Assembly: GCF_041075285.1 (NCBI RefSeq)
Contig: NZ_CP163512.1
Span: 3,472,001-3,536,000 of the forward strand
Source of the DNA: Providencia rettgeri
GTDB lineage: Bacteria > Pseudomonadota > Gammaproteobacteria > Enterobacterales > Enterobacteriaceae
Direction: 5' to 3'
Length of the DNA stretch: 64,000 nucleotides
Shown: in pieces, positions 1 through 33,117 of the stretch
Position numbering within the stretch: the first letter of the stretch is position 1
Layout of the letters: each line of letters starts with the position of its first letter
Translations under genes and position numbers: made by a program
Notes under the pieces: model-generated
Databases searched by the model: none
The model's input: the letters and a program-made list of their open reading frames with translations, nothing else
Told to the model about the DNA's origin: nothing

Positions 1-1455
1 GAGGTAGATTTAAACCCGAAACTGGCCAATCGCAATAAAGGTGAACGCCGCACCCCTGAGAAGAATTTATTTAGCGAAGAACAGATTGAAAAGCTGGAAG
101 AAATCTTTCGTGAAAATATGTTTGCGTACCAAAAGGTTTGGTACGGCGCAGGCCATAAACACCGCATTCGTAACATATTAAAATCACGGCAAATCGGGGC
201 AACCTATTTTTTTGCTCGAGAAGCCTTTATGGATGCGCTGACCACTGGACGCAATCAGATTTTTCTCTCTGCAAGTAAAGCACAGGCCCATGTCTTTAAA
301 GGCTATATCATTGATATGGCGCGAGAGGTTGATGTTGACTTAAAAGGTGACCCTATTGTTTTACCCAATGGCGCAACACTTTATTTTCTTGGTACTAATG
401 CTCGAACTGCGCAAAGCTATCACGGCAATCTGTACTTAGATGAATATTTCTGGATACCCAAATTCCAAGAATTACGCAAAGTCGCCTCCGGTATGGCCAT
501 GCACAAGAAATGGCGTCAAACCTACTTTTCGACCCCATCCGCACTAACACACAGCGCGTATCCGTTCTGGTCAGGCAAATTATTTAATCGTGGTCGTCGT
601 AAGGCCGATCACATTGAGGTCGATATCAGCCATCAAGCGTTAGTGAATGGCATGATGTGCGGGGATGGTCAGTGGCGGCAAATTGTCACCATTGAAGATG
701 CCATGCGCGGCGGATGTAATTTATTCGATATTGATCAACTCTATTTAGAATACAGCCCTGATGAATTCGAAAACTTGCTGATGTGTGAGTTTGTCGACGA
801 TATCGCATCCATTTTCAATTTGCAGCTAATGCAAAAATGCATGGTGGACAGTTGGGAAATATGGGACGACGTTCAACCGTTAATGATACGCCCCTATGCT
901 TTCCATCCCGTTTGGATTGGTTACGACCCTGCAAAAGGTACTCAAAACGGAGATAGTGCCGGTTGCGTAGTGATTGCCCCACCGCTACATAAAGGCGGTA
1001 AGTTTCGCATACTTGAACATCACCAATGGCGCGGCATGGATTTTCGCGCACAATCGGATGCAATAAAAGAACTCACTGAGCGCTACAACGTGCAATACAT
1101 CGGGATTGATTCCACAGGTATTGGCCATGGTGTCCTGCAAAACGTACGCGAATTTTTCCCCGCCGCAAAAGAATTTGTCTATAACCCTGCGTTAAAAAAT
1201 GCGTTAGTGCTTAAGGCTTATGACGTGATTAGCCATGACCGCCTTGAATATGATGCGGGAAGCAATGATATCACGCAATCTTTTATGGCCATTCGCCGTG
1301 CCACTACCGCCAGTGGTAACCGCCCAACTTATGAAGCTGACCGCAGTGAGGAAGCCAGCCATGCCGATTTAGCGTGGGCAACCATGCATGCGCTTTATAA
1401 CGAACCGATCACCGGTGAAAATCACAATCAACATAATATCGTCGAGGTCTTTTAA
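1..1455 (+). CDS. P: P2-like phage terminase large subunit, gpP (5' end outside window)
   Basis: ATPase/nuclease that packages phage DNA into proheads from the cos site. The frame is open from base 1, so the start lies upstream; 484 residues are visible against about 590 in P2. Visible are an ATPase P-loop region (KSRQIGATYFF, residues about 61-71), a Walker B-like LYLDEYFW (about 144-151), and a C-terminal RNase H-like nuclease with acidic clusters IGYDPAKG, YIGIDSTGIGHG and EEASHADLAWA. It overlaps the portal gene by one base (TAATG), and the P-Q order and direction match the P2 head operon. Family identification is secure; the N-terminus cannot be judged. Confidence 0.93.
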   Translation, partial: EVDLNPKLANRNKGERRTPEKNLFSEEQIEKLEEIFRENMFAYQKVWYGAGHKHRIRNILKSRQIGATYFFAREAFMDALTTGRNQIFLSASKAQAHVFKGYIIDMAREVDVDLKGDPIVLPNGATLYFLGTNARTAQSYHGNLYLDEYFWIPKFQELRKVASGMAMHKKWRQTYFSTPSALTHSAYPFWSGKLFNRGRRKADHIEVDISHQALVNGMMCGDGQWRQIVTIEDAMRGGCNLFDIDQLYLEYSPDEFENLLMCEFVDDIASIFNLQLMQKCMVDSWEIWDDVQPLMIRPYAFHPVWIGYDPAKGTQNGDSAGCVVIAPPLHKGGKFRILEHHQWRGMDFRAQSDAIKELTERYNVQYIGIDSTGIGHGVLQNVREFFPAAKEFVYNPALKNALVLKAYDVISHDRLEYDAGSNDITQSFMAIRRATTASGNRPTYEADRSEEASHADLAWATMHALYNEPITGENHNQHNIVEVF

Positions 1456-2492
1456 TGAGCCGTAAAAATAAAAAACGCCAATCACAAACACTGGCGCAAA
1501 AAACCGACAGCGCATCAATGGAAGCATTCACTTTCGGTGACCCAATCCCCGTACTGGATAAGCGTGAAATTTTTGATTATTTAGAATGTGTGCAAATTGA
1601 TAATTACTATGAGCCGCCCATTAGTTTTAATGGCCTTGCTCGCACGTTCCGTGCAGCTCCACACCATAGCAGCGCAATTTATGTAAAACGTAATATTCTC
1701 ACCAGTACCTTTATTCCTAATAAATATTTAAGTCGTCAGACGTTTGATAGTTGGGCATTAGATTTTTTACTGTTTGGTAATGGGTATCTTGAAGAACGAA
1801 ATAACCGTCTGGGGCAATCACTGAATTTCAAACATTCGCCGGCTAAGTTTACCCGCCGCGGTGTTGACTTAGAAACTTACTGGTTTGTGCAATATGGCTA
1901 CGATATTAAACCGTATGAATTTCAAACGGGCAAAGTGTTTCACTTGATTGAGCCGGATATTAACCAAGAGTTATACGGTTTGCCGGAATATCTCGCGGCA
2001 ATCCCCTCCGTACTGCTTAATGAATCGGCAACACTATTTCGCCGTAAATATTATCTCAATGGTTCGCACGCAGGCTATATCTTGTATATCAGTGATGCAG
2101 CACAAAAAACCGATGATGTGGATAAAATTCGTGAAGCCCTGAAAAGCAGCAAAGGGCTGGGAAATTTCCGCAATTTATTTTTGTATGCACCAGGGGGAAA
2201 GAAAGACGGCATCCAAACAATCCCACTCTCTGAGGCGGCGGCAAAAGATGAATTCCTCAATATTAAAAATGTGAGCCGTGACGACATGTTAGCGGCACAC
2301 CGTGTGCCACCACAAATCATGGGGATCATTCCTGAAAATGTGGGCGGCTTTGGTGATGTTGAGAAAGCGGCAAAAGTATTTGTGCGCAATGAGTTGATGC
2401 CGTTACAAAGTAAGATGATGCAATTGAATGATTGGTTTGGCGGGGAGATTATAAAGTTTGAAAAGTATTCTCTGGACTTAGACGACGAATAA
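1455..2492 (+). CDS. Q: P2-like phage portal protein, gpQ
   Basis: Portal protein that forms the dodecameric ring at one capsid vertex, through which terminase pumps DNA. Its 345 residues match P2 gpQ in length. Family features include the N-terminal FTFGDPIPVLDKREI, a central LLFGNGYLEERNN, the HLIEPDINQELYGLPEY segment and the C-terminal HRVPPQIMGIIPENVGGFGD. The start codon overlaps the terminase stop by one base, indicating translational coupling. It is the last gene of the P-Q unit: a strong hairpin with a T-run follows within 50 bases, and then the cos region. No sign of decay. Confidence 0.94.
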   Translation: MSRKNKKRQSQTLAQKTDSASMEAFTFGDPIPVLDKREIFDYLECVQIDNYYEPPISFNGLARTFRAAPHHSSAIYVKRNILTSTFIPNKYLSRQTFDSWALDFLLFGNGYLEERNNRLGQSLNFKHSPAKFTRRGVDLETYWFVQYGYDIKPYEFQTGKVFHLIEPDINQELYGLPEYLAAIPSVLLNESATLFRRKYYLNGSHAGYILYISDAAQKTDDVDKIREALKSSKGLGNFRNLFLYAPGGKKDGIQTIPLSEAAAKDEFLNIKNVSRDDMLAAHRVPPQIMGIIPENVGGFGDVEKAAKVFVRNELMPLQSKMMQLNDWFGGEIIKFEKYSLDLDDE

Positions 2493-2513
2493 TATCACGC
2501 GTAAATTCAATGA

Positions 2514-2541
2514 TACCGCCCACTGAGGCGGTATTTTTTTT
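2514..2541 (+). terminator. Rho-independent terminator after gpQ
   Basis: A 7-bp perfect stem (TACCGCC 2514-2520, GGCGGTA 2527-2533) with a 6-base loop is followed by eight T residues. It closes the P-Q packaging unit. Confidence 0.9.
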
Positions 2542-3016
2542 GCCCGTAGGTAGGTGATCTCGATGCCCTAAATAATAATAGAACCCCACTGTATTATACC
2601 AAACCTAACTCACCAAGACGAATCCGCAATAAATTACCCCCATCAAATAGCGATTTAAACGCACTATACGCCACCACAAAGCGTGCAAAATTAATTGCTA
2701 TCTAGTTATAGAAATTTGATTTTAACGCTGTGACGGCTCGGAGATTTTGCGGACGAATATTTAACAATAAACACCTCGCCGCGCAATCGTGACCCCGCCA
2801 CGCCTGCCCACTAAATAGGTCGGTTTTCATGCACCTGCAAGAGATCGTCTGAACCGCGCCAGTAGTGGAGCCTCGCACAGGTAACGATCCTTTTTTGATC
2901 TTGCTAATTTAGGCGGAAAAATGCGAAATTTACGCGTCAGGCAAAGTAAAAATAAAAACCGCCTTTTATGTATCAAGAGTCCGAAAAATAATCTCGTCTA
3001 AAACCCAAAACGCGCG

Positions 3017-3035
3017 ATTGCTCCCCCGCCTCGCC
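3017..3035 (-). other. Probable cos (cohesive-end) site
   Basis: Read on the minus strand this is GGCGAGGCGGGGGAGCAAT. It shares its first 12 bases and its 19-base length with the P2 cohesive end, and occupies the same place beyond gene Q. The exact nick positions are not visible from sequence. Confidence 0.65.
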
Positions 3036-3171
3036 CGCACACAAAAGGTGTGCTTTTTTGTGCAGTTGTGCCGATCACTAAAACCCGCACCAGTACAGGT
3101 ACCGAGCAGAAAATAAGTTAAGGCTAAATTTGTGCAAATTGATGCGAAATTGTGAGGTTATTTTAGACAAC

Positions 3172-3194
3172 AAAAAACCGCTAAAAAGCGGCTT
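3172..3194 (-). terminator. Probable terminator of the accessory operon
   Basis: On the minus strand a short hairpin (GCCGC, TTTTTA loop, GCGG) is followed by TTTTTTG, about 90 bases beyond the stop of the last accessory gene. The stem is short, so termination may be weak. Confidence 0.55.
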
Positions 3195-3282
3195 ATATTT
3201 TCAATTAAAAAATTAAATTATTGTTGTATTAGCTATTATATGTTTTGACATATTACAATTAAAAATAGCCATTTAGATATGT

Positions 3283-4239
3283 TTAATTGACTAACTCTTG
3301 CTCGTTTCCGCTAATGAACTCCGCTGGATAAGATGCTTCTTCCTCTGAAGAAAAGCTATATTCTTCCAACGAATATCTACTGAATTCTCTTTCTAGCCTT
3401 TTTGTGAATTCATCTTCACTTAAAATTTGTATTTTTTGTTTTGACTTTGTATTTTCAACTAATGTTATATGACAAATCCGTTTTTTGATTTCTTCACCTG
3501 AGGGAGCGGTATCGATTTTATCTTGACCGATCGCAGCAAAGATACCGAGTAGTGCCTCTTTTTCTTCATCATTTATGCGATCCTTAATATCTTTATACTC
3601 TCTACCTTTAAATTTCGATGGTATTGTTAGTATAATTTGTAGCTTATAGTCGATGTCATCAGGTAACTCATCATGCGTATCAAGTTTGAAGTACACCCCT
3701 GAACAATACTCAGAAAAATTTTCTTTACCCCATATTCTTTTTAACCGCTTTTTCTTTGTATCTATTCGCCTATTAAATGCATCTGGAAATACTGATTTTC
3801 TATATCTCTCTGCAATCCAATCAAGCAAACAACCGAGCTCTCCCGCCCCCCATTCAATATCCTTTTCAACCTTGCATTCTAATAAAGATTCGCGGCTGAT
3901 TTGTAAAAAACCCATTGCTGAGAACTCAATACATAATTCATCACTACCTTGTTTAGCGGTTAAATGAATTCTTCTCGGGTGCTTACCATAACGAAAATTT
4001 GAGTGCGGGTCAGTACATGTTCCGACCAATACCTGCACCCATGGCTCACTATCAAAATCAGTTGATATCAACGCACAATCATACAACACAGGAACCATAA
4101 AAATAGGCTTAGATAAATCATATAGCTTTTGTAACTTCTCAGGTAAAAGAGAAACTAATTGAGTATTCTTACTCAGATCAACAAAAGCTCCTCTCTTCCA
4201 GCCTGCGTCAATCCATCGCTGTCTGATATCATGTGACAT
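3283..4239 (-). CDS. Accessory phage protein of unknown function (third gene of tin/old-position operon)
   Basis: A 318-residue protein I do not recognise. It looks soluble, with no signal peptide or membrane segment. The N-terminal half is rich in aromatic residues (RQRWIDAGWKRGAF; EPWVQVLVGTCTDPHSN); the middle is basic (RRIDTKKKRLKRIWGK); the C-terminus is acidic (SSEEEASYPAE). No catalytic signature is evident. It starts 12 bases after the preceding gene's stop with AAGGA eight bases before the ATG, and is the last gene of a three-gene unit with the HTH-membrane and TIGR04255-like proteins. Base composition is AT-rich compared with gpA. The location between cos and gpA equals that of P2 tin and old, so a role in phage exclusion is a reasonable but untested inference. 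Confidence 0.8.
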   Translation of the reverse strand: MSHDIRQRWIDAGWKRGAFVDLSKNTQLVSLLPEKLQKLYDLSKPIFMVPVLYDCALISTDFDSEPWVQVLVGTCTDPHSNFRYGKHPRRIHLTAKQGSDELCIEFSAMGFLQISRESLLECKVEKDIEWGAGELGCLLDWIAERYRKSVFPDAFNRRIDTKKKRLKRIWGKENFSEYCSGVYFKLDTHDELPDDIDYKLQIILTIPSKFKGREYKDIKDRINDEEKEALLGIFAAIGQDKIDTAPSGEEIKKRICHITLVENTKSKQKIQILSEDEFTKRLEREFSRYSLEEYSFSSEEEASYPAEFISGNEQELVN

Positions 4240-4251
4240 GATTATAAATCC

Positions 4252-4971
4252 TTAAACAATCCCAGAACGAGTCACATACCCATCCAAAATACTGTATGAA
4301 TCGTAATATGCTTTCAGTAAAACATTTAAATCTAACTTAGGAGCAGTAAATGCTCTAGCTAGATCTTCATCATAAATATTTCCAAAAATCATTTTTGCAA
4401 AGTAAAATTTATGTGAATCATCAAATTCTCTAGAAAATTGATTTAAAATATTTAAATTTTCTTCAATATTTTTATTTATTCTAATCTCGTTATTTTTCTT
4501 CCAATTATAAAGAGTTTTTCTTTCTACTCCTAAAATTTTTGCCCACTGAGAGATATTAAAGCCAAACTTATTTCTTAAATTTTCACTAGTTACAACTGCA
4601 CCATTGGACAAAATATCAGAATCAGAAACTTGAGTAAAATTTGCATCAGAAGCTATATTGCTGTAGCTTTCTACTGGTTTACTCTCGGAATCATCATCTG
4701 CCAGATTCTGAGGAAAACATAAAAAACTAGTAAATAAAGCCAAAATTAGCATTTTTAATAGAAAAGAATTTTGAGCATCTGTATTTGCTTCTGTATTATG
4801 TAAATTATATTGAGGATTATCTACATTATAAATCCCAGCATCAAAATCATGCCCTTGGCTTTCGGCTATGGCTTTATCGCTACATAAATCAGAATCCTTA
4901 ATCATAGTATGGATATTTCCGATATTTTTATTGCAGTCAACAAAATAATCCCCATAGTTACTCACACTCAT
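4252..4971 (-). CDS. Membrane-anchored helix-turn-helix protein (second gene of accessory operon)
   Basis: A 239-residue protein of unusual layout. About 65 hydrophilic residues are followed by one hydrophobic stretch (about 70-86, SFLLKMLILALFTSFLCF), an acidic linker, and a helix-turn-helix at about 131-165 (NISQWAKILGVERKTLYNWK, the classic pattern of a recognition helix ending in W-K). The tail of about 75 residues includes FYFAKMIFGNIYDEDLARAF. It could be a membrane-tethered regulator or a sensor-antitoxin-like component. Start chosen at ATG 4971, with AAGGGA seven bases upstream and 20 bases after the preceding stop. AT-rich, with many ATA and AAA codons, unlike the phage core genes. 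I know no family name; the HTH call is firm and the membrane call is likely. Confidence 0.8.
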   Translation of the reverse strand: MSVSNYGDYFVDCNKNIGNIHTMIKDSDLCSDKAIAESQGHDFDAGIYNVDNPQYNLHNTEANTDAQNSFLLKMLILALFTSFLCFPQNLADDDSESKPVESYSNIASDANFTQVSDSDILSNGAVVTSENLRNKFGFNISQWAKILGVERKTLYNWKKNNEIRINKNIEENLNILNQFSREFDDSHKFYFAKMIFGNIYDEDLARAFTAPKLDLNVLLKAYYDSYSILDGYVTRSGIV

Positions 4972-4991
4972 AATTTATTCCCTTCTAACTA

Positions 4992-5765
4992 TTACTGGGT
5001 AATTACTATATCATTAAATATGATATTTGCATTATCTCTTAATTCACTTAATTTATCCAGTATCTCATTGATATTAAAGTCATTACTCTCTCCTTTTCTT
5101 CTCGGAATATAAAATGAATTTATATCTAATAATGCCATAGGCCCTTTTACCGTACTGGAAAAATCCGCAAAATCTGACGATATATCAAATAGTTCAGGAG
5201 GAATCTTTGTTCCATTCAATGCTATTCCGCTATTAATGGCAACCGCATTATCCTCAATAACATACGTTGAACTTAAATTACTTCCACCTTTACGCCATCC
5301 ATTCAAATCCGGCTGTAGGAAATCACGACGTTTTATTACATCTTTAAAATCATAATCAGGGTTGTAATCAAAATTATTTATATATCTAATTGACACACTC
5401 TTGAGATAGTTTATTTCAAACTTACTCTTAATGAACTGAAGAACAGGTTCTATCCGCTCGGATAACCCTGCAAAATTTTTATAAACCTTTGTTTGAACAA
5501 CAAGGGAGTCTGTAGAGAGACGAATAGACCAGTCAGAATTCATCGATAAAAGAACACAAATTCTCTGCTCTATCTTTTCTATTCTCGGCACTCCACCATC
5601 ATTCAATTTTATTTCAATCCCTTCCCTTACCTTATTACTATCAAATATAGGATAATGTAATCTAAATTTTTCTATAAATTCCTCGACTAAAGAAGAAAAT
5701 CGCCCCTCAGTTATTCCCATGAATTCAATTTTTGAGAGTACATATACTAAATGGTTAGCACTCAT
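4992..5765 (-). CDS. TIGR04255-like protein (first gene of accessory operon)
   Basis: 257 residues when started at ATG 5765, which has AAGGAG six bases upstream; a longer frame to 5792 lacks such a site. The N-terminus (HLVYVLSKIEFMGITEGRF, then a helix with EKFRLHYPIFD) and the C-terminus (ALLDINSFY, then NEILDKLSELRDNANIIF and a terminal I-T/V-T) follow the pattern of the sporadically distributed TIGR04255 family. That family is about 250 residues long, has no established activity and is often found beside small accessory or regulatory genes. The gene leads a three-gene unit with short gaps (20 and 12 bases). AT-rich composition suggests recent acquisition by the prophage. Family call moderately sure; function unknown, defence plausible from position. 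Confidence 0.8.
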   Translation of the reverse strand: MSANHLVYVLSKIEFMGITEGRFSSLVEEFIEKFRLHYPIFDSNKVREGIEIKLNDGGVPRIEKIEQRICVLLSMNSDWSIRLSTDSLVVQTKVYKNFAGLSERIEPVLQFIKSKFEINYLKSVSIRYINNFDYNPDYDFKDVIKRRDFLQPDLNGWRKGGSNLSSTYVIEDNAVAINSGIALNGTKIPPELFDISSDFADFSSTVKGPMALLDINSFYIPRRKGESNDFNINEILDKLSELRDNANIIFNDIVITQ

Positions 5766-5795
5766 AGTAAGCTCCTTATTAACTCTCCGCATATT

Positions 5796-5863
5796 TTACA
5801 CAATTTTTCATGCTTACGCACTAGATTACACAAAAAATCATCAGTAATGAGGCAAATTACACA
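5796..5863 (-). promoter_or_regulatory. Three phased TTACACA repeats upstream of the accessory operon
   Basis: TTACACA occurs at 5796-5802, 5826-5832 and 5857-5863, spaced 30 and 31 bases (about three helical turns each), each flanked by A/T runs. On the minus strand they read TGTGTAA, upstream of the operon's ribosome binding site. This resembles a phased operator, and the HTH protein encoded in the operon is the obvious candidate ligand. That link is inference. Confidence 0.5.
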
Positions 5864-5891
5864 CTTTTTTTTTGTTTAGCGCTTATTATTT

Positions 5892-8318
5892 TCATTCATG
5901 ATGCTTTTTTAATTCACCAACTCTAGCCAACACATCAGCGCACCGTTGTTTATACTTCCGACTTCTAGCCTCTTTTTGTGCTGCTATTTCTTGTTTTCTT
6001 TGCTCTTTTCCATCCTCTGTCAGCTCTAACCTCAGCCGTTCCCCGTCTAATTTCAGATAATAGTCACCATCACTAACCCCCATGCCTTTAGTAAACATGA
6101 TTTCAACGTGTGGAATATCAAAATCAATACCAACCTCTTTGGCAAAAGTGACTATTTCGGACTGAATTTCTTTATCACTCTCACTTAGTTCAATTTTTGA
6201 TATCTGTCTTTGCTGATTACACTGTGATATTTCGCTGCCTGCGGCGTTATTAGCGTCTGTTTCTATAAACGCGAAACCGTATTCCTTAATGTTGCATACT
6301 TCACCTGAACCCTGTTCAGGCTCGTAAAATTGCACATCTGATAGATTGGACGTGATCCGCGATCTACAGTTATTGACAGGACTCCGAGGCGCTCCGCTGT
6401 CGCTTCTTAAAAGATTAAGGTCAACGTCAACGGCGCTTTTCTTGACGATTTGATACTTTCTGTCGCGTGTTTTGATGACTGGAGAAGCAGATTTTAGTTG
6501 GTTGTAGATACCAACAACTTTCTGAACATCTTCACCGTAGACATTTACATCACTGTTCTCACGAGCAACGCGTATCGTTTCTTCACTCCGACGAATACAT
6601 GGGCCACCTTGTGACATCACATACTCAAAGAAATCACCACTATCTGCTGCTGCGCGCACGCGCTCTGCAACTTCACCGAGCTGATCAGCAATAGAAACAC
6701 CACGCAAACAAGAACGACGACACTCTCGATAAGCGCCTTTTGATGGGAGTTTATAGAAATGAAATTGTGGAATACGCCAAGTTGAAGCCCACGCACTAAC
6801 TGCCGCCGCCATACTTTTTAAATCTTTTCCGGTTTCGTGGTCTATCTCACCATCAAGGGCGTATCCGTCGATATTTTTAGCAATATATTTTGCGATATAG
6901 CCTACTGCACCACCGCGATTCATGTGTTTACATTCAAAACGGTACTTATGTGCGCCGGCCTCGTCACCATCTTCTTTTAATGCACGTTTGCGCATGATCT
7001 CAATGGCTTTTGCCCGACTTGCTTTATCAACAAATAACAACATGTGCCAATGCGGTGTACCATCATGATGTGGTTCGACAACCCGAACACCATAAATATT
7101 GATATTGTTATCATTGAAAGCGGAACGAATACGCGACCACACTTTGACTAAATAACGCTGCCCGTCTTTTGGTGTATAGGCTTCATCTTTCCATTTATGG
7201 TTTAGTACGGCGTAATAATCATCTTTTCCGGTTTCTTTATTTTTCTCTTTACGTTGCTTTGTCGGGTGGTACTTTGACGGGCACGTCAGCGTGATAAACA
7301 TCCCGATATCACCGCGTTCTTTTGCCACGCGCTCAATCCCTGCCATTTGCGCCATTAATTCCATGCGGCGAATTTCAGGGTTTGACACACTGGCCATCAC
7401 TTTATCGAACAGATCAAAACGCTCACCTGTTTCAACATCTTGAATATCCATACCCTGTAAATATTGCATGTTGGATAAACGCTGTACTTGAACAGCGCGG
7501 ATCGCTTGCTTACTGGCGTATGGGTGGCGATTAATGCACACATCCATATTGGCAATCATGATTGCCTCAATCCACTGTGTTCTATGGGCTTTTAGCTTAC
7601 GGTGCCAGTAATCTGCATTTACAAGGCGAGAAATAGCTGCGATCACTTGGTGCATGGTTAGGTTTTGCTTCCCTTTGCGGTGCTTTCGGTTTTTTAACAC
7701 TTTGAGATAACTTTGGTGATAAAGCGGTGTGACATGCAAATTTAAAGATAATTCAGCCAGTGCCCCGTAAATTTGAGTTTGTGCTGAATCTTCATAGATA
7801 ATTTTACGGTCGCCACCATTTTGCTCAGTTAGCTGGTCACAATATGTTTCATATAGCGTGAAAAAACCATTAGAAATGTGCTCTGCCAGTTTTTTGATTG
7901 GTTTGTCATAAAGGTCAAACAACCGGTTAAATTGACTGATTTCAGGTGTAAAGCGAGTTGAAAGTGTCAATAGCGCTTTCGTTTTTAATTCATATCGTGA
8001 ATTAACCGCTGTGATACGTGGAAATATCCGCTTATAAAAATCAGAGCGTAAAAATTCATAAGCTTTATAGTGGCCTGATTCTTTAATGATGTATTCATAA
8101 TGCTTTTGAATGCGATAACGTAAAATACGCGGTAAAGTTTCAATTTCATCTAAAATCGCTTGCGCATGAATTTGTTGTTCATGGGTAAGGGATTTCTCAA
8201 GTGCGTCAATATCAGCTTTGTAGTAATTATTTTTTTCTGGCTTATTCCACGGATACGGAAATACCATATCCGCAGTATAAGTTAACGGTTGCTGCGTAAA
8301 ATCTAATACCTTAGACAT
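5892..8318 (-). CDS. A: P2-like replication initiator endonuclease, gpA
   Basis: Rolling-circle initiator that nicks the phage origin and remains covalently bound to the 5' end. At 808 residues it is slightly longer than P2 gpA (about 760). The HUH-endonuclease motifs are in order: ITLTCPSKYHP (about residue 350), the metal-binding GTPHWHMLLFV (about 420) and the double catalytic tyrosine in YIAKYIAKN (about 473, a Y-x3-Y pair). The N-terminal third is helical and basic; the C-terminus is charged and variable, ending in a coiled-coil-like stretch (EQRKQEIAAQKEARSRKYKQ). Its start overlaps the preceding gene's end by eight bases. Intact and confidently assigned. Confidence 0.95.
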   Translation of the reverse strand: MSKVLDFTQQPLTYTADMVFPYPWNKPEKNNYYKADIDALEKSLTHEQQIHAQAILDEIETLPRILRYRIQKHYEYIIKESGHYKAYEFLRSDFYKRIFPRITAVNSRYELKTKALLTLSTRFTPEISQFNRLFDLYDKPIKKLAEHISNGFFTLYETYCDQLTEQNGGDRKIIYEDSAQTQIYGALAELSLNLHVTPLYHQSYLKVLKNRKHRKGKQNLTMHQVIAAISRLVNADYWHRKLKAHRTQWIEAIMIANMDVCINRHPYASKQAIRAVQVQRLSNMQYLQGMDIQDVETGERFDLFDKVMASVSNPEIRRMELMAQMAGIERVAKERGDIGMFITLTCPSKYHPTKQRKEKNKETGKDDYYAVLNHKWKDEAYTPKDGQRYLVKVWSRIRSAFNDNNINIYGVRVVEPHHDGTPHWHMLLFVDKASRAKAIEIMRKRALKEDGDEAGAHKYRFECKHMNRGGAVGYIAKYIAKNIDGYALDGEIDHETGKDLKSMAAAVSAWASTWRIPQFHFYKLPSKGAYRECRRSCLRGVSIADQLGEVAERVRAAADSGDFFEYVMSQGGPCIRRSEETIRVARENSDVNVYGEDVQKVVGIYNQLKSASPVIKTRDRKYQIVKKSAVDVDLNLLRSDSGAPRSPVNNCRSRITSNLSDVQFYEPEQGSGEVCNIKEYGFAFIETDANNAAGSEISQCNQQRQISKIELSESDKEIQSEIVTFAKEVGIDFDIPHVEIMFTKGMGVSDGDYYLKLDGERLRLELTEDGKEQRKQEIAAQKEARSRKYKQRCADVLARVGELKKHHE

Positions 8319-8634
8319 TTAGCGCACCACCCAAGGTTTCAGGCCGCAATGCGTTGATGGCCGTTTCACAACGGCGTGAAATGATATCAACTGTTTGGCG
8401 GTAAACATCTAATGATTTGATGCCTTTACCTTTAACGCGGCTAACATGATAAGAAGTTAATTCAATCGCCAGCATCCACGGATCAGAATGGCAACAAACC
8501 AACTCATAGCAACGAGCAATTTTATTGATTTGCAATAGTCGCCATTGAACCGCTTTTGAATCTTCGTCAACATGACGTTGAATAGCAAAAGCGGTCCCGC
8601 TGATGTATACGCCGTCTTTAGGATCGAGAATCAT
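8311..8634 (-). CDS. Small P2-like early protein, unknown function
   Basis: 107 residues, soluble, with no recognised motif. It is coupled on both sides: its ATG overlaps the dam stop (TAATG at 8634-8636) and its end overlaps the gpA start by eight bases. That makes translation as part of the early operon convincing even though I cannot name the family. The middle holds two cysteines (ELVCCHSDPW), and the C-terminal half looks helical. It sits immediately before gene A, where P2 relatives carry small uncharacterised early proteins. Confidence 0.8.
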   Translation of the reverse strand: MILDPKDGVYISGTAFAIQRHVDEDSKAVQWRLLQINKIARCYELVCCHSDPWMLAIELTSYHVSRVKGKGIKSLDVYRQTVDIISRRCETAINALRPETLGGALNV

Positions 8635-9452
8635 TAGTGAATCCCCGCTAAAACAGCAATAATTTCTTTAGCCGGCGTTCGCTTTCCATTACTAGCAATG
8701 GTGCGTGGTGCTTCTATCTCGTGGATAGTAAAACCGAGGTCAGCGTAAAGCGCCTTTGCTTCTGGTGAATTAGAAACGGTGATTGGATTGCCTTGGATAT
8801 CATTAATATCTTTTAGAGCTATTGCTAATGCTTCGTGGTCTGCATCAGTAAAGCTGGCGGTATGATATTGCGTGAAGCTATCACGCCCGCCCATATAGGG
8901 TGGATCACAATAAACACCATCACTGAAATCAACTAATGAAAGGGTGTCTTGCCATTCAAGATTTAAAATTTGAGTTTTAGTGAGATAGGCCTTATCACAG
9001 AAACTATCAATTTCACTTTTAGGAAAATAGGGAGCTTTGTATTGACCAAAGGGGACGTTGAATTTGCCTTGTTGGTTATAACGACATAACCCGTTGAAAC
9101 AATGTCTGTTTAAGTATAGAAATAAACTTGCTTGTCTTAGCCGTGATAATGCTTGTTTACTATCATTAAACTCTGATCTAGCAAGATAATAATCAGCGCT
9201 ATTATTCCTTCTAAAAAGTGGCAAAGCCTCTATTAACATACTCTCAGGTAAGATAGTGAGAGTTTCATATAAGTTAATTAAATCAGGGTTAGCATCAGCA
9301 ATTAAATACTGCTCATAGTCAGTATTCATCATCACAGCGCATGAGCCTGCGAACGGCTCGACTAAGCGTTTAGTTTTTGGTAAGTGTGGGCGTAATTGCT
9401 CCATGATACGAACTTTAGAACCGGCCCATTTAAGTATGGTTTTATTAGCCAC
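8634..9452 (-). CDS. dam: Phage DNA adenine methyltransferase (Dam family)
   Basis: Methylates adenine, probably at GATC, using S-adenosylmethionine; phages carry it to shield DNA or to tune replication. Visible motifs are the AdoMet-binding LKWAGSKVRIMEQLRPHLP at the N-terminus, VEPFAGSCAV, IADANPDLINLY and the catalytic DPPYMGG. I place the start at GTG 9452 (272 residues). Translation from there gives the family N-terminus (NKTILKWAG), GGAG lies eight bases upstream, and the GTG is one base after the stop of the zinc-finger gene. The longer frame to 9590 would run through that gene. Length is normal for Dam (about 270-280). Confidence 0.92.
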   Translation of the reverse strand: MANKTILKWAGSKVRIMEQLRPHLPKTKRLVEPFAGSCAVMMNTDYEQYLIADANPDLINLYETLTILPESMLIEALPLFRRNNSADYYLARSEFNDSKQALSRLRQASLFLYLNRHCFNGLCRYNQQGKFNVPFGQYKAPYFPKSEIDSFCDKAYLTKTQILNLEWQDTLSLVDFSDGVYCDPPYMGGRDSFTQYHTASFTDADHEALAIALKDINDIQGNPITVSNSPEAKALYADLGFTIHEIEAPRTIASNGKRTPAKEIIAVLAGIH

Positions 9453-9453
9453 T

Positions 9454-9675
9454 TCACACGCTCCGATAATGTTTACTTTTAAGCTCAAAAATCGTTTGGC
9501 AATCAATACAGCGTGTACAACCCTGTGATGCAATGCGGCGCGCTTCTGAAATAGGTTTACCGCAGTCTTCACATTCAAAAGCGGAAACATTGACTAGACG
9601 ATTAGTAATGGTTTTGATTTGTTGCTCACGCATGAGCATTTCGTGCTCGCTTGCGCGGTCAATTTCTTTAGACAT
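9454..9675 (-). CDS. TraR/DksA-type C4 zinc-finger protein
   Basis: 73 residues. The signature is a four-cysteine zinc finger, CEDCGKPISEARR followed by CTRCIDCQ, as in the C-terminal domain of DksA and TraR and in small early proteins of P2-like phages. The N-terminus is a short charged helix (SKEIDRASEHEMLMREQQIK). Such proteins can bind RNA polymerase through the secondary channel; that role is family knowledge, not shown here. Its end lies one base before the dam GTG and its start overlaps the preceding gene by eight bases. Confidence 0.9.
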   Translation of the reverse strand: MSKEIDRASEHEMLMREQQIKTITNRLVNVSAFECEDCGKPISEARRIASQGCTRCIDCQTIFELKSKHYRSV

Positions 9676-9928
9676 GATCCAGCTCCGCAGCTAGGTTTGA
9701 GTAATGCTCAGACTCACCAACTAATAACTGGTGAATTTGTTCATCGTTTAGTTTTTCGTTAATTAACTTGCACGCGATGGCTTCAAGGCGAGAGGAAAAT
9801 TTATCAAACATGACTTTTCTCTCATCCTCGCGAATAGCCTTAATACTGATTGCGACAACGGAATAATCATGTTCACCCGTTGCAGGATCAGCACCGATTA
9901 ATATTGGTTTTATTTCTTTATTTTTCAT
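9668..9928 (-). CDS. Small P2-like early protein, unknown
   Basis: 86 residues from ATG 9928, which has GAGGG seven bases upstream; a longer frame to 9979 has no such site. The N-terminal part (PILIGADPATGEHDYSVVA) resembles the short degron-like or RNase H-like opening seen in several phage small proteins. The C-terminal half is helical (LEAIACKLINEKLNDEQI) and faintly recalls the DUF2732 small proteins of P2-like phages. It overlaps the zinc-finger gene by eight bases. Real gene by context; function unknown. Confidence 0.72.
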   Translation of the reverse strand: MKNKEIKPILIGADPATGEHDYSVVAISIKAIREDERKVMFDKFSSRLEAIACKLINEKLNDEQIHQLLVGESEHYSNLAAELDHV

Positions 9929-9997
9929 TATCAAACCCTCAGATTTAGAATGTAGAAATCCCTGACGCGTTAACGTCATTAATTTTGTTTCTTTACC

Positions 9998-10429
9998 TTA
10001 AATAGGCATGGCGATATGTTTAGGGAATAGCGCCGTAAGTGCTTTAATTTGATTTATTGCTGAAATAATTGCTTGTTGTTCCTCTTTATTAAATTCATCG
10101 AAACCTAAATGATGTTGGTTGCTTTTTATTTCCGCTAAATAAAAAATCATATTTAGCATCCGTACATCACTTAATCTCAAGTACTCAATAAATCCGGCTA
10201 GCTCTCTATTATCTGGATTTTGTTTATCACAATGAAATACCGATGTTCTTAACTTTGCGGCTTGGTTTAACCCATTTACTCTATTTTCAAAGGTTGCCCC
10301 TTGATTTTGATAAAGCTTGATATTTGCTTGGTGCGCGATGATATCGGCTGGCCTTGCATCTTGCTTTACGTTATCTAGTAACTGGATTAACTGTTTAGTT
10401 TTCACTAATACAGCCACTGAATTACTCAT
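9998..10429 (-). CDS. P2-like early protein, possibly DUF5347 family
   Basis: 143 residues, predicted all-helical and soluble. The central text (GATFENRVNGLNQAAKLR, then FIEYLRLSDVRMLNMIFYLAEI) resembles the DUF5347 family found in prophages of Providencia, Proteus and Xenorhabdus; I give this from memory with limited confidence. It lies five bases after a small membrane-protein gene in the early operon. P2 gene B (helicase loader) sits in a similar place, but I see no direct similarity and do not claim that role. Confidence 0.72.
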   Translation of the reverse strand: MSNSVAVLVKTKQLIQLLDNVKQDARPADIIAHQANIKLYQNQGATFENRVNGLNQAAKLRTSVFHCDKQNPDNRELAGFIEYLRLSDVRMLNMIFYLAEIKSNQHHLGFDEFNKEEQQAIISAINQIKALTALFPKHIAMPI

Positions 10430-10434
10430 TGTTT

Positions 10435-10596
10435 TTATCTAATAGCAACTGAGAACAAGTACAATAAAAACAAAATACCAGCGACCAATAATATTTTATC
10501 CATCAAGGTTAATTGGCGTTTTTTATTTCGTTTGTGTTCATTAAATGATGAACTCGTTAATTTATGTTTGTGTTGCTGAAATTGTAATTGAGTCAT
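10435..10596 (-). CDS. Small phage membrane protein (53 aa)
   Basis: A 53-residue reading frame from ATG 10596. Its N-terminal half is polar and basic (QFQQHKHKL ... HKRNKKRQL), followed by a single hydrophobic helix (KILLVAGILFLLYLFSVAI). AGGAA lies six to seven bases before the ATG, and the stop is five bases before the next gene's ATG, so it fits the early operon precisely. Function unknown; the layout of a basic cytoplasmic tail plus one membrane helix suggests a small inner-membrane effector or an exclusion-type protein. Confidence 0.65.
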   Translation of the reverse strand: MTQLQFQQHKHKLTSSSFNEHKRNKKRQLTLMDKILLVAGILFLLYLFSVAIR

Positions 10597-10674
10597 TTTT
10601 TATTCCTATTTTCGCGTGTTCTAAATTACACTATGGTATCTTTTGCTTTAACCTAAAATATAAAGGACCAAGTA

Positions 10675-10962
10675 ATGTACGAAACACCTATTCAGCACAC
10701 TATCCGAAAAGAACTAGAACCTTTACTAGAGAAACTTAGTGATTTAACGTTTCAAGTTAACCTACAGCACCGACTGATAATTGCATTAATGAGCGAATTA
10801 CCAGATGGAGCATTAAAAGGTTTTACTCCTTTTGATATGGCTATAAGGGATTACATAAAACACTTCCCAGTAAACTCTGATCAACACTATGATGTGATTA
10901 CAACTATCAATCAATGCATTGAATTAGCTGAAAATTATAAGAATACATCTCCAGTTGAATGA
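10675..10962 (+). CDS. Small plus-strand phage protein inside the minus-strand early operon
   Basis: 95 residues, acidic and helical, no recognised domain (N-terminus YETPIQHTIRKELEPLLEKL; middle LPDGALKGFTPFDMAIRDY). ATG 10675 has AAAGGA seven bases upstream, and an AT-rich promoter-like stretch precedes it. It runs against the operon direction and its last 28 bases overlap the 3' end of the gene on the other strand. Composition and the ribosome binding site favour a real gene, perhaps a lysogenic-conversion (moron) gene expressed on its own. What it does cannot be told from sequence. Confidence 0.6.
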   Translation: MYETPIQHTIRKELEPLLEKLSDLTFQVNLQHRLIIALMSELPDGALKGFTPFDMAIRDYIKHFPVNSDQHYDVITTINQCIELAENYKNTSPVE

Positions 10963-11156
10963 TACTCACCCTCATTAAACTCCTCGCCATCGGATATATG
11001 TATCAAAACCTCTTTTAGGTCGGTGGCATTGTATTTCTTTCCATTTGATAAGATTAAACACATACAACCCAATGAAGCTACAGGATAGTTTGCTGTAATC
11101 ATTTGAGGGTTAACTAAGTGATTTTTCCCATTAGCTCTAAACATTAAGTATTTCAA
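10935..11156 (-). CDS. Small P2-like early protein with TTG start
   Basis: 73 residues. TTG 11156 has AGGAG with a six-base spacer and overlaps the previous stop (TTGA), whereas the first ATG is 12 bases further in and badly placed, so TTG is preferred. The protein is rich in beta-forming residues (YLMFRANGKNHLVNPQMI; MCLILSNGKKYNATDL) and has no recognised domain. Part of the early operon by overlap with the upstream gene. Confidence 0.65.
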   Translation of the reverse strand: MKYLMFRANGKNHLVNPQMITANYPVASLGCMCLILSNGKKYNATDLKEVLIHISDGEEFNEGEYHSTGDVFL

Positions 11157-11344
11157 TTTCTACTCCTAAGATAGAGCTTATTTATATAGAGTGCCGCATC
11201 ACTCATTGAATCAAATAAACCGAATGAATCATCATTTCGTTGGACATGATAGCGGGTTACTGGATTCATAGATTTAGCGGGCAATTTGATAATTAAAAAG
11301 CCACGATATTTAAAGCTGTGAGTTGAAATTTGTTCGACTTTCAT
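11153..11344 (-). CDS. Small P2-like early protein, unknown
   Basis: 63 residues with the text HSFKYRGFLIIKLP and YHVQRNDDSFGLFDSMSDA, a compact layout resembling small phage early proteins that bind other factors. It starts one base after the cox stop and overlaps the next gene at TTGA, which supports translation. No family assigned. Confidence 0.68.
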   Translation of the reverse strand: MKVEQISTHSFKYRGFLIIKLPAKSMNPVTRYHVQRNDDSFGLFDSMSDAALYINKLYLRSRN

Positions 11345-11345
11345 A

Positions 11346-11618
11346 TTACAACCCTACCCATAAAAGCCATGTTTTCCGTTGCTCTTCTGTACGGCTATAA
11401 AATGCCTCATCCATACCACGGTTAAACTCAGTAATGCTTACCCAAATTTCACCAGCACGGCTTTTTGGTTTCGCTGGATCACGAAATTCGATAATGGGTA
11501 ATTTTCCGTGTTTAGCCATTGTCTTGACCGCTTCATGATTTTTACCGATCAACTCCGCAAATTTTGCCAATGGCACTGCATTCACCGGATATTTGACATT
11601 GATTTGCTCTTTATTCAT
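11346..11618 (-). CDS. cox: P2-like Cox excisionase / lytic switch regulator
   Basis: Cox is the directionality factor for excision and the repressor of the lysogenic promoter in P2-like phages. Its 90 residues match P2 Cox (91). Recognisable segments are VPLAKFAELIGKNHEAVK and MAKHGKLPIIEF (winged-helix/HTH), SRAGEIWVSITEFNRGMDEA, and the C-terminus WLLWVGL, equivalent to P2's WLMWLGL. It is the first gene of the early operon and divergent from the C repressor across a 120-base operator region, exactly as in P2. Confidence 0.93.
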   Translation of the reverse strand: MNKEQINVKYPVNAVPLAKFAELIGKNHEAVKTMAKHGKLPIIEFRDPAKPKSRAGEIWVSITEFNRGMDEAFYSRTEEQRKTWLLWVGL

Positions 11619-11683
11619 TTGTTACCCTCGTTAGATCAAACCTTTTAAAACCTTTCATTTCGGGTTTTATGGGTTTTTGCGCG

Positions 11684-11737
11684 TCAATCGGTTCGTATAA
11701 AGAACCGATTGACTGAATACTAGTTCGTTAAAGGAAC
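11684..11737. promoter_or_regulatory. C-repressor operator pair in the cox-C switch region
   Basis: A perfect 11-bp inverted repeat (TCAATCGGTTC 11684-11694, GAACCGATTGA 11702-11712; 7-base spacer) is followed by a related shorter repeat (GTTC 11723-11726, GAAC 11734-11737; also 7-base spacer). The two centres are about 32 bases apart, three helical turns. Between divergent cox and C these are the expected repressor operators. Confidence 0.75.
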
Positions 11738-11738
11738 C

Positions 11739-12038
11739 ATGTCAATGGACATATCTCAAAAAATTAAAGCTGTGAGGCAAGCTGAAGGATATAGCCAATC
11801 TCAACTATCTGATTTAGTTGATATATCTATTAGTACCCTAAAGAAAATAGAGGCTGGCTATCAAGAACCCAGCGTTTCAACTCTGTCGAAAATAACCAAA
11901 CATCCTAAATTTGATAAGTATGCCTTATGGATAATTAGCGATAAAACACTCCCTGAAGCTGGTCAGATTGCACCAGCCCTCGCACACAATGGGCCAGAGA
12001 AAGAAACCTCACCCCACTCAGGAAAGAAAACTGGTTAG
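11739..12038 (+). CDS. C: P2-like immunity repressor C
   Basis: Maintains lysogeny by blocking the early promoter. The 99 residues equal P2 C in length. The HTH is at about residues 18-40 (SQSQLSDLVDISISTLKKI), and the C-terminal half carries the diagnostic ESGQ-type text (EAGQIAPALAHNG) and TSPHSGKKTG, nearly identical to P2 C. The first ATG (11739) aligns with the P2 start, although its AAGGA is only three bases away; ATG 11745 is the alternative. Cotranscribed with int. Confidence 0.95.
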   Translation: MSMDISQKIKAVRQAEGYSQSQLSDLVDISISTLKKIEAGYQEPSVSTLSKITKHPKFDKYALWIISDKTLPEAGQIAPALAHNGPEKETSPHSGKKTG

Positions 12039-32760: not shown

Positions 32761-33117
32761 TTACTCAATAAAAAAATGCTCTCCACCAATTAATGGAATC
32801 AACCTTGCGAGTACATCATCAAGAACACCCTCATCAGCAACTACCCCAAACTTCATACTTCTATCTTTCCAAGATAGTGTTTGAATAAGGTTTGCCGCAG
32901 CAACACACGGAGTATCTAGGTTATTTATAGCAACCTCTGTAATATGTCCTCTAATACTTGTGCTAATAGGACAACAAATAACCAAACCTGATTTTTTATT
33001 ATATTCCACACTGGATAAAATGAGTGCAGGTCGATATTTTCCTATTTCTTTTCCTTTCGTTGGCTCAAAATCTAGCCAGATAATATCATTTCGCCTTGGG
33101 ATATAACTTTTACTCAT
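32761..33117 (-). CDS. MazF/PemK-type toxin (mRNA interferase)
   Basis: Probable ribosome-independent endoribonuclease of a type II toxin-antitoxin pair. 118 residues. The family opening RNDIIWLDFEPTKGKEIGKY, with the following RPALILS, and the strand GLVICCPIST are present. The MazF arginine (KYRPA) and the Thr/Ser of CPISTS are in place, so it looks active. ATG overlaps the antitoxin stop (ATGA). Inserted between trmL and cysE. Confidence 0.9.
   Translation of the reverse strand: MSKSYIPRRNDIIWLDFEPTKGKEIGKYRPALILSSVEYNKKSGLVICCPISTSIRGHITEVAINNLDTPCVAAANLIQTLSWKDRSMKFGVVADEGVLDDVLARLIPLIGGEHFFIE

Follow-up and report, generated by a model that had tools for sequence, protein, structure and literature searches.

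The window analysed here, a 64,000-nucleotide stretch of the Providencia rettgeri genome (contig NZ_CP163512.1, positions 3,472,001 to 3,536,000), contains part of a P2-like prophage in which three adjacent genes, here called T, H and X, lie between the replication gene gpA and the portal gene gpQ. On balance, the trio is probably a mobile tripartite toxin–antitoxin-like module that serves as superinfection-defence cargo of the prophage. The gene order, the co-conservation of the genes, the hotspot position, the helix–turn–helix (HTH) of H and the partnership of TIGR04255 proteins, the family of T, with recognised toxins were observed, and a MazF/CcdB-type fold of X is indicated by a confident predicted model. 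Because of this fold and the pairing of TIGR04255 with recognised toxins, X would be the effector, H an antitoxin-like regulator and T the shared component.

Conservation of the trio

The trio consists of three minus-strand open reading frames (ORFs) at 4992–5792 (266 aa), 4252–4971 (H, 239 aa) and 3283–4239 (X, 318 aa), and the gaps of 20 and 12 b agree with the tight spacing given in the original prediction. Purine-rich, Shine–Dalgarno-like stretches precede all three genes, as had also been proposed. For the first gene an AAGGAG site precedes an inner ATG at 5765, with an alternative upstream ATG at 5792 that gives the 266 aa product; because of this good ribosome site, T is probably 4992–5765 (257 aa).

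Relatives of X were found by profile in 5 of 394 genomes of the order, 12 of 369 of the class and 8 of 398 of the phylum, the window genome being counted each time and some genomes recurring, and by DNA pattern in 37 viral stretches and at least 119 genome-contig stretches. Thirteen loci had no X by profile, comprising 12 pattern matches from genome contigs and the broken copy L018. Upstream sequence of 1600 b or more was available for 117 X ORFs, counting duplicates of some loci and the fragments of three split X genes; 116 of them were preceded by both H and T in the same orientation, and the remaining one by H only. H was therefore present upstream on the same strand in 117/117, the listed gaps being mostly −40 to +20 b, and the order was T-H-X in the loci listed. 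Of 94 complete triplets, 72 were left in a non-redundant set (X less than 80 % identical).

The trios compared from E. coli and Acinetobacter were 20–28 % identical to the window trio, and a second Providencia trio was 32, 36 and 42 % identical to it for T, H and X respectively. Because three fast-diverging genes hold their order at such distances, the sequence evidence that T, H and X form a genuine working unit is strong. Recurrence as a unit, which had been set beforehand as a check on the original prediction, was observed. In two loci (L102 and L166) X was broken into two ORFs, with H and T apparently whole.

All three proteins matched PHROGs families of unknown function: T phrog_35157 (E 1.2e-38), H phrog_30764 (E 1.2e-24) and X phrog_34320 (E 7.3e-48). 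Searches of phages with T and H by tblastn gave no matches, and a megablast search of phages with positions 1–12000 of the window gave one match above 4 %, to gpA of an Arsenophonus record. A search of genome contigs with T for close relatives gave 78 pattern stretches and no relative. In PADLOC-DB 2.0.0, neither T nor X of the window trio had a match at E≤1, nor did those of two E. coli trios and one Robbsia trio, consistent with the earlier view that the trio corresponds to no named system. The PADLOC matches of H were short, covered only the region around the HTH and were to mad1/RmrA at E 2.5e-4 or weaker.

Predicted properties of X, H and T

The AlphaFold2 model of X had a predicted local distance difference test (pLDDT) score of 86.9. 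Foldseek and VIA-align, applied to the whole model, placed residues ~7–150 in a MazF/CcdB/Kid-type fold, and this predicted N-terminal fold appears to be new here. X had no Pfam family above the cut-off and no NCBIfam family; the best matches in sequence searches of the PDB had E values of 0.1 for X and 0.75 for T.

The HTH of H matched Pfam HTH_8 at 21 bits, just under the cut-off of 22. An N-terminal hydrophobic stretch before the HTH reached a 19-aa mean hydropathy of 1.94 in the window protein. H had originally been described as a membrane-plus-HTH protein; the HTH was upheld, and a role as membrane anchor was rejected because the stretch is not found throughout the family, a value of 1.6 being reached by only 21 of 73 H proteins.

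T matched NCBIfam TIGR04255 over residues 13–262 of the longer ORF (E 9.6e-18, 64.9 bits). With a curated cut-off of 30 bits, this makes T a member of the family, as had been suspected. The model name, sporadTIGR04255, gives no function, and neither the family nor a toxin operon logic for it was mentioned in the literature searched. TIGR04255 was present in 24 of the 229 genomes sampled from the class and in 23 of the 259 sampled from the phylum. The predicted model of T (pLDDT 86.7) consists of two repeats, with arginine-kinase, TBP and AdoMetDC as the nearest fold types; SecB-type chains were not among the structural matches listed, which is uninformative either way.

TIGR04255 operons other than the trio

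The commonest type in the 58 TIGR04255 loci analysed was the T-H-X trio. TIGR04255 genes without H and X stand ahead of recognised toxins of the PIN (two genes), YhaV (one) and PemK/MazF (one) families, which occupy third place in their operons and were the sole Pfam matches in 69 second and third genes. T itself had been considered a possible effector or sensor; the former role was rejected, since recognised toxins are the partners of this family and the fold of X points to X.

Two further operon types were noted. In one, sorted by eye (L238, L245, L246, L247, L248, L256, L281, L290, L292, L299, L300 and L302), the TIGR04255 gene is accompanied by a 163–208 aa protein, mostly with a WDGYGA-like motif, and then a 93–193 aa protein; no Pfam family was found in the partner proteins scanned, which were all but the third gene of L245. 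In the other (L244, L254, L255, L284, L287, L293 and L303), the TIGR04255 gene is followed by a 102–134 aa protein, in most cases containing a hydrophobic stretch, and by a short QGD...SNTCD-like protein, perhaps a minimal X relative.

We tentatively raise a broader reading, which we regard as possible but somewhat doubtful, that TIGR04255 is a new class of toxin–antitoxin third component without a SecB match. It would have been shuffled before many toxin types (the MazF-fold X, the short QGD...SNTCD proteins, PemK, PIN, YhaV and several unnamed pairs), and would make the middle protein T-dependent, so that ordinary toxins would become infection-triggered suicide switches.

Hotspot position and distribution

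The gpA–gpQ interval of P2-like phages is described in two reports as a defence hotspot from which defence systems have been validated (PMC9122126; PMC9519451). A portal match was present in 13 of 16 same-genus genomes. Eight regions beside the best-matching same-genus portals were compared, of which seven, two of them (L323 and L325) from one genome, had both gpA and portal, and one (L329) had no gpA match. One of the seven two-landmark intervals held a divergent trio (L322, 32–42 % identical) and six held other contents. The portal proteins of the seven were 95.6–99.7 % identical to that of the window in five cases and 92 and 73 % in the remaining two. The DNA of either flank was 80–95 % identical in all but one of the seven intervals, and the DNA between the landmarks was different each time. 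The trio is thus exchangeable accessory cargo of the P2 gpA–gpQ hotspot, the site of tin and old in P2, as originally proposed. The contents of the other intervals, among them L323, L324, L326, L327 and L328, were labelled by eye and included ATPase genes, with an AAA-type ATPase next to a small partner and an ATPase and HNH-like pair, as well as an 887-aa protein and a cytosine-methyltransferase-like gene.

A blastn search of 5426 E. coli genomes with one trio gave relatives in 19, one only at ≥80 % query coverage, and in all four records viewed T-H-X had the portal on one side and the gpA side on the other. P2 landmarks were present within 16 of 37 viral stretches vs 5 of 119 genome stretches, and the low latter count indicates that the trio extends beyond P2. 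It was also found on a prophage contig of Acinetobacter, on plasmids of Meiothermus and Acinetobacter close to genes for type I restriction, and, by record title, in genome records of several phyla. X matched 10 plasmid records, and the trio was seen in the four viewed.

Surrounding genes and leader

In the window, plus-strand terminase and portal genes (118–1455 and 1455–2492) come first, with ~0.8 kb without a long gene, the trio and then gpA after them. The P2 gpQ-like portal gene (1455–2492, plus strand) and the P2 gpA-like replication gene (5892–8318, minus strand) form the two hotspot borders and lie outside the module. The G+C contents of T, H and X were 0.326, 0.292 and 0.365 respectively vs 0.416–0.460 for gpA, gpQ and gpP, so the description of the trio as more AT-rich than the phage core genes holds.

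The leader between gpA and T (5766–5891, minus strand) is a candidate operator/promoter. It holds TGTGTAA as a direct repeat in three copies, with starts at 5863, 5832 and 5802 and a spacing of 30–31 b, out of seven copies in the whole window on both strands. Operator repeats as a family feature were rejected, triple 7-mer repeats being present in 4 of 71 other trios vs 6 of 355 control stretches. Elsewhere in the window, outside the trio, the minus strand carries a canonical toxin gene of the PemK/MazF family at 32797–33096 (PF02452, E 4e-19).

Proposed mechanism and alternatives

In the proposed mechanism, X would be a growth-arresting effector, and H would bind and neutralise X and repress the operon. 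T would keep H folded or stable, possibly via the hydrophobic stretch of H, and/or sense infection. On infection by a second phage, T would be drawn away or inactivated, H would be lost and X freed, and the cell would stop before the phage cycle is complete, in the manner reported for CmdTAC and its SecB-like chaperone. If this is true, TIGR04255, a family with a name but no function, offers a way to find a whole range of three-gene toxin systems, and the trio of the P2 hotspot a test case for a prophage cassette that turns a MazF-fold toxin into an infection-triggered response.

Several results weigh against this interpretation. Foldseek with the X model gave no match at E≤1e-3, X had no Pfam match to PemK/MazF (PF02452) at E≤1, and hhalign of X against six PemK/MazF proteins gave a probability of 0.1. 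MazF catalysis involves Arg and Thr residues, and these were not seen to be conserved in the X alignment, as judged by eye. T had no Pfam match at E≤1 and hence no SecB match. HTH regulators of the ordinary kind are also matched by the H profile, and more strongly (CylR2, E 5e-4), and the hydropathy of the H family is uneven, being at least 1.6 in 21 and at least 1.3 in 44 of 73 proteins. For the non-trio TIGR04255 loci, 65 of 69 partner genes had no Pfam family and 6 of 14 middle proteins reached a hydropathy of 1.5 (15-aa mean). The small number of genome stretches with P2 landmarks also belongs here.

The same is true of the defence-gene neighbourhood. The flanks of 19 trio loci (133 ORFs) were compared with 19 control regions (133 of 140 ORFs, those of L229 being excluded); L190 was left out, having no trio among its chosen ORFs, probably through a fault of ORF choice. 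At E≤1e-15, 158 PADLOC model names were matched in the trio flanks vs 43 in the control, the models being redundant and the genes few. Among the 25 model names listed per set, the trio flanks had type I specificity, methyltransferase and mad5-type matches in two ORFs each, and the control had mad2 matches in three ORFs and matches to GajB-type helicase, HEC-02 and DRT-type models in a single ORF each. A Pfam scan of the trio flank ORFs only found P2 gpA in two and portal in two. Defence-gene neighbours are modest in these 19 loci, PADLOC matches occur in the control set too, and strong defence-island enrichment outside prophages was rejected.

Three other explanations were considered. Defence of a kind other than toxin–antitoxin, in which X and T would pair as effector and sensor to act on nucleic acid or protein of the phage, with H regulating the operon only, is compatible with the HTH in H, the operator-like repeats ahead of T here, the lack of MazF sequence similarity in X, the hotspot position and a two-repeat fold of T that could bind nucleic acid or ligand. 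We consider it unlikely in view of the fold of X and of the PIN, YhaV and PemK genes that stand third in operons without H and X, a position that fits neutralised toxins. That the trio is a selfish module for addiction/maintenance or for prophage regulation, playing no part against other phages, would suit its occurrence on plasmids and chromosomes and the partition-type cargo reported from P2 hotspots (PMC9122126). Repeated occupancy of a site that is a source of validated defence systems (PMC9122126; PMC9519451), and the restriction genes near the trio on the Meiothermus and Acinetobacter plasmids, make this quite improbable.

Diverged phage core genes for replication, packaging or morphogenesis might be suggested by the location between core genes and by the uncharacterised PHROGs families. 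This is hardly credible, since five same-genus intervals with portals 92–99.7 % identical carry other cargo and no trio, and since the trio occurs on plasmids and, by record titles, in several phyla. The presence of similar same-genus prophages without the trio bears out the original prediction that it has no phage core function.

Comparison with known systems

As a toxin–antitoxin-like defence module, the trio resembles the toxin–antitoxin–chaperone (TAC) systems CmdTAC, MqsRAC and Mycobacterium tuberculosis HigBA1-SecB in having a three-gene operon with an antitoxin-like middle component, and in that one third-component family, SecB-like in TAC and TIGR04255 in the trio, is combined with unrelated toxins. 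The SecB-like chaperone of TAC binds a short addiction sequence (ChAD) of the antitoxin, and some can assist very distant antitoxin families (PMC5105189). In CmdTAC, a phage capsid protein draws the chaperone off and the toxin is freed (PMC11618068), and both CmdTAC and MqsRAC are reported to defend against phage (PMC11618068, PMC9519451). The trio differs in that T is a TIGR04255 protein, has no SecB match and is first in the operon, and in that the hydrophobic stretch of H is N-terminal and present in part of the family, whereas the ChAD is described as C-terminal (PMC5105189).

With MazEF, Kis-Kid and CcdAB the trio shares the predicted fold of X residues ~7–150 and an HTH gene upstream of a toxin-like gene. 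The differences are that X has more than twice the length, carries an additional C-terminal part and lacks a PemK sequence match, and that there is a constant third gene. The type II toxin–antitoxin arrangement of an HTH gene beside a toxin-like gene in one operon is present, with H as the putative antitoxin. The trio would work like a TAC or MazEF-type system while falling outside the sequence definitions of both.

The trio occupies the same genomic slot as tin/old and other P2 gpA–gpQ hotspot systems. Among these, Rst_3HP likewise has three genes in the gpA–gpQ slot and protects against P1, and its description gives it no clear predicted domain (PMC9122126). The HTH of H differs from that description and so speaks against identity of the two. 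If the trio were 3HP, its defence activity would already be known, but the toxin–antitoxin-like reading would not.
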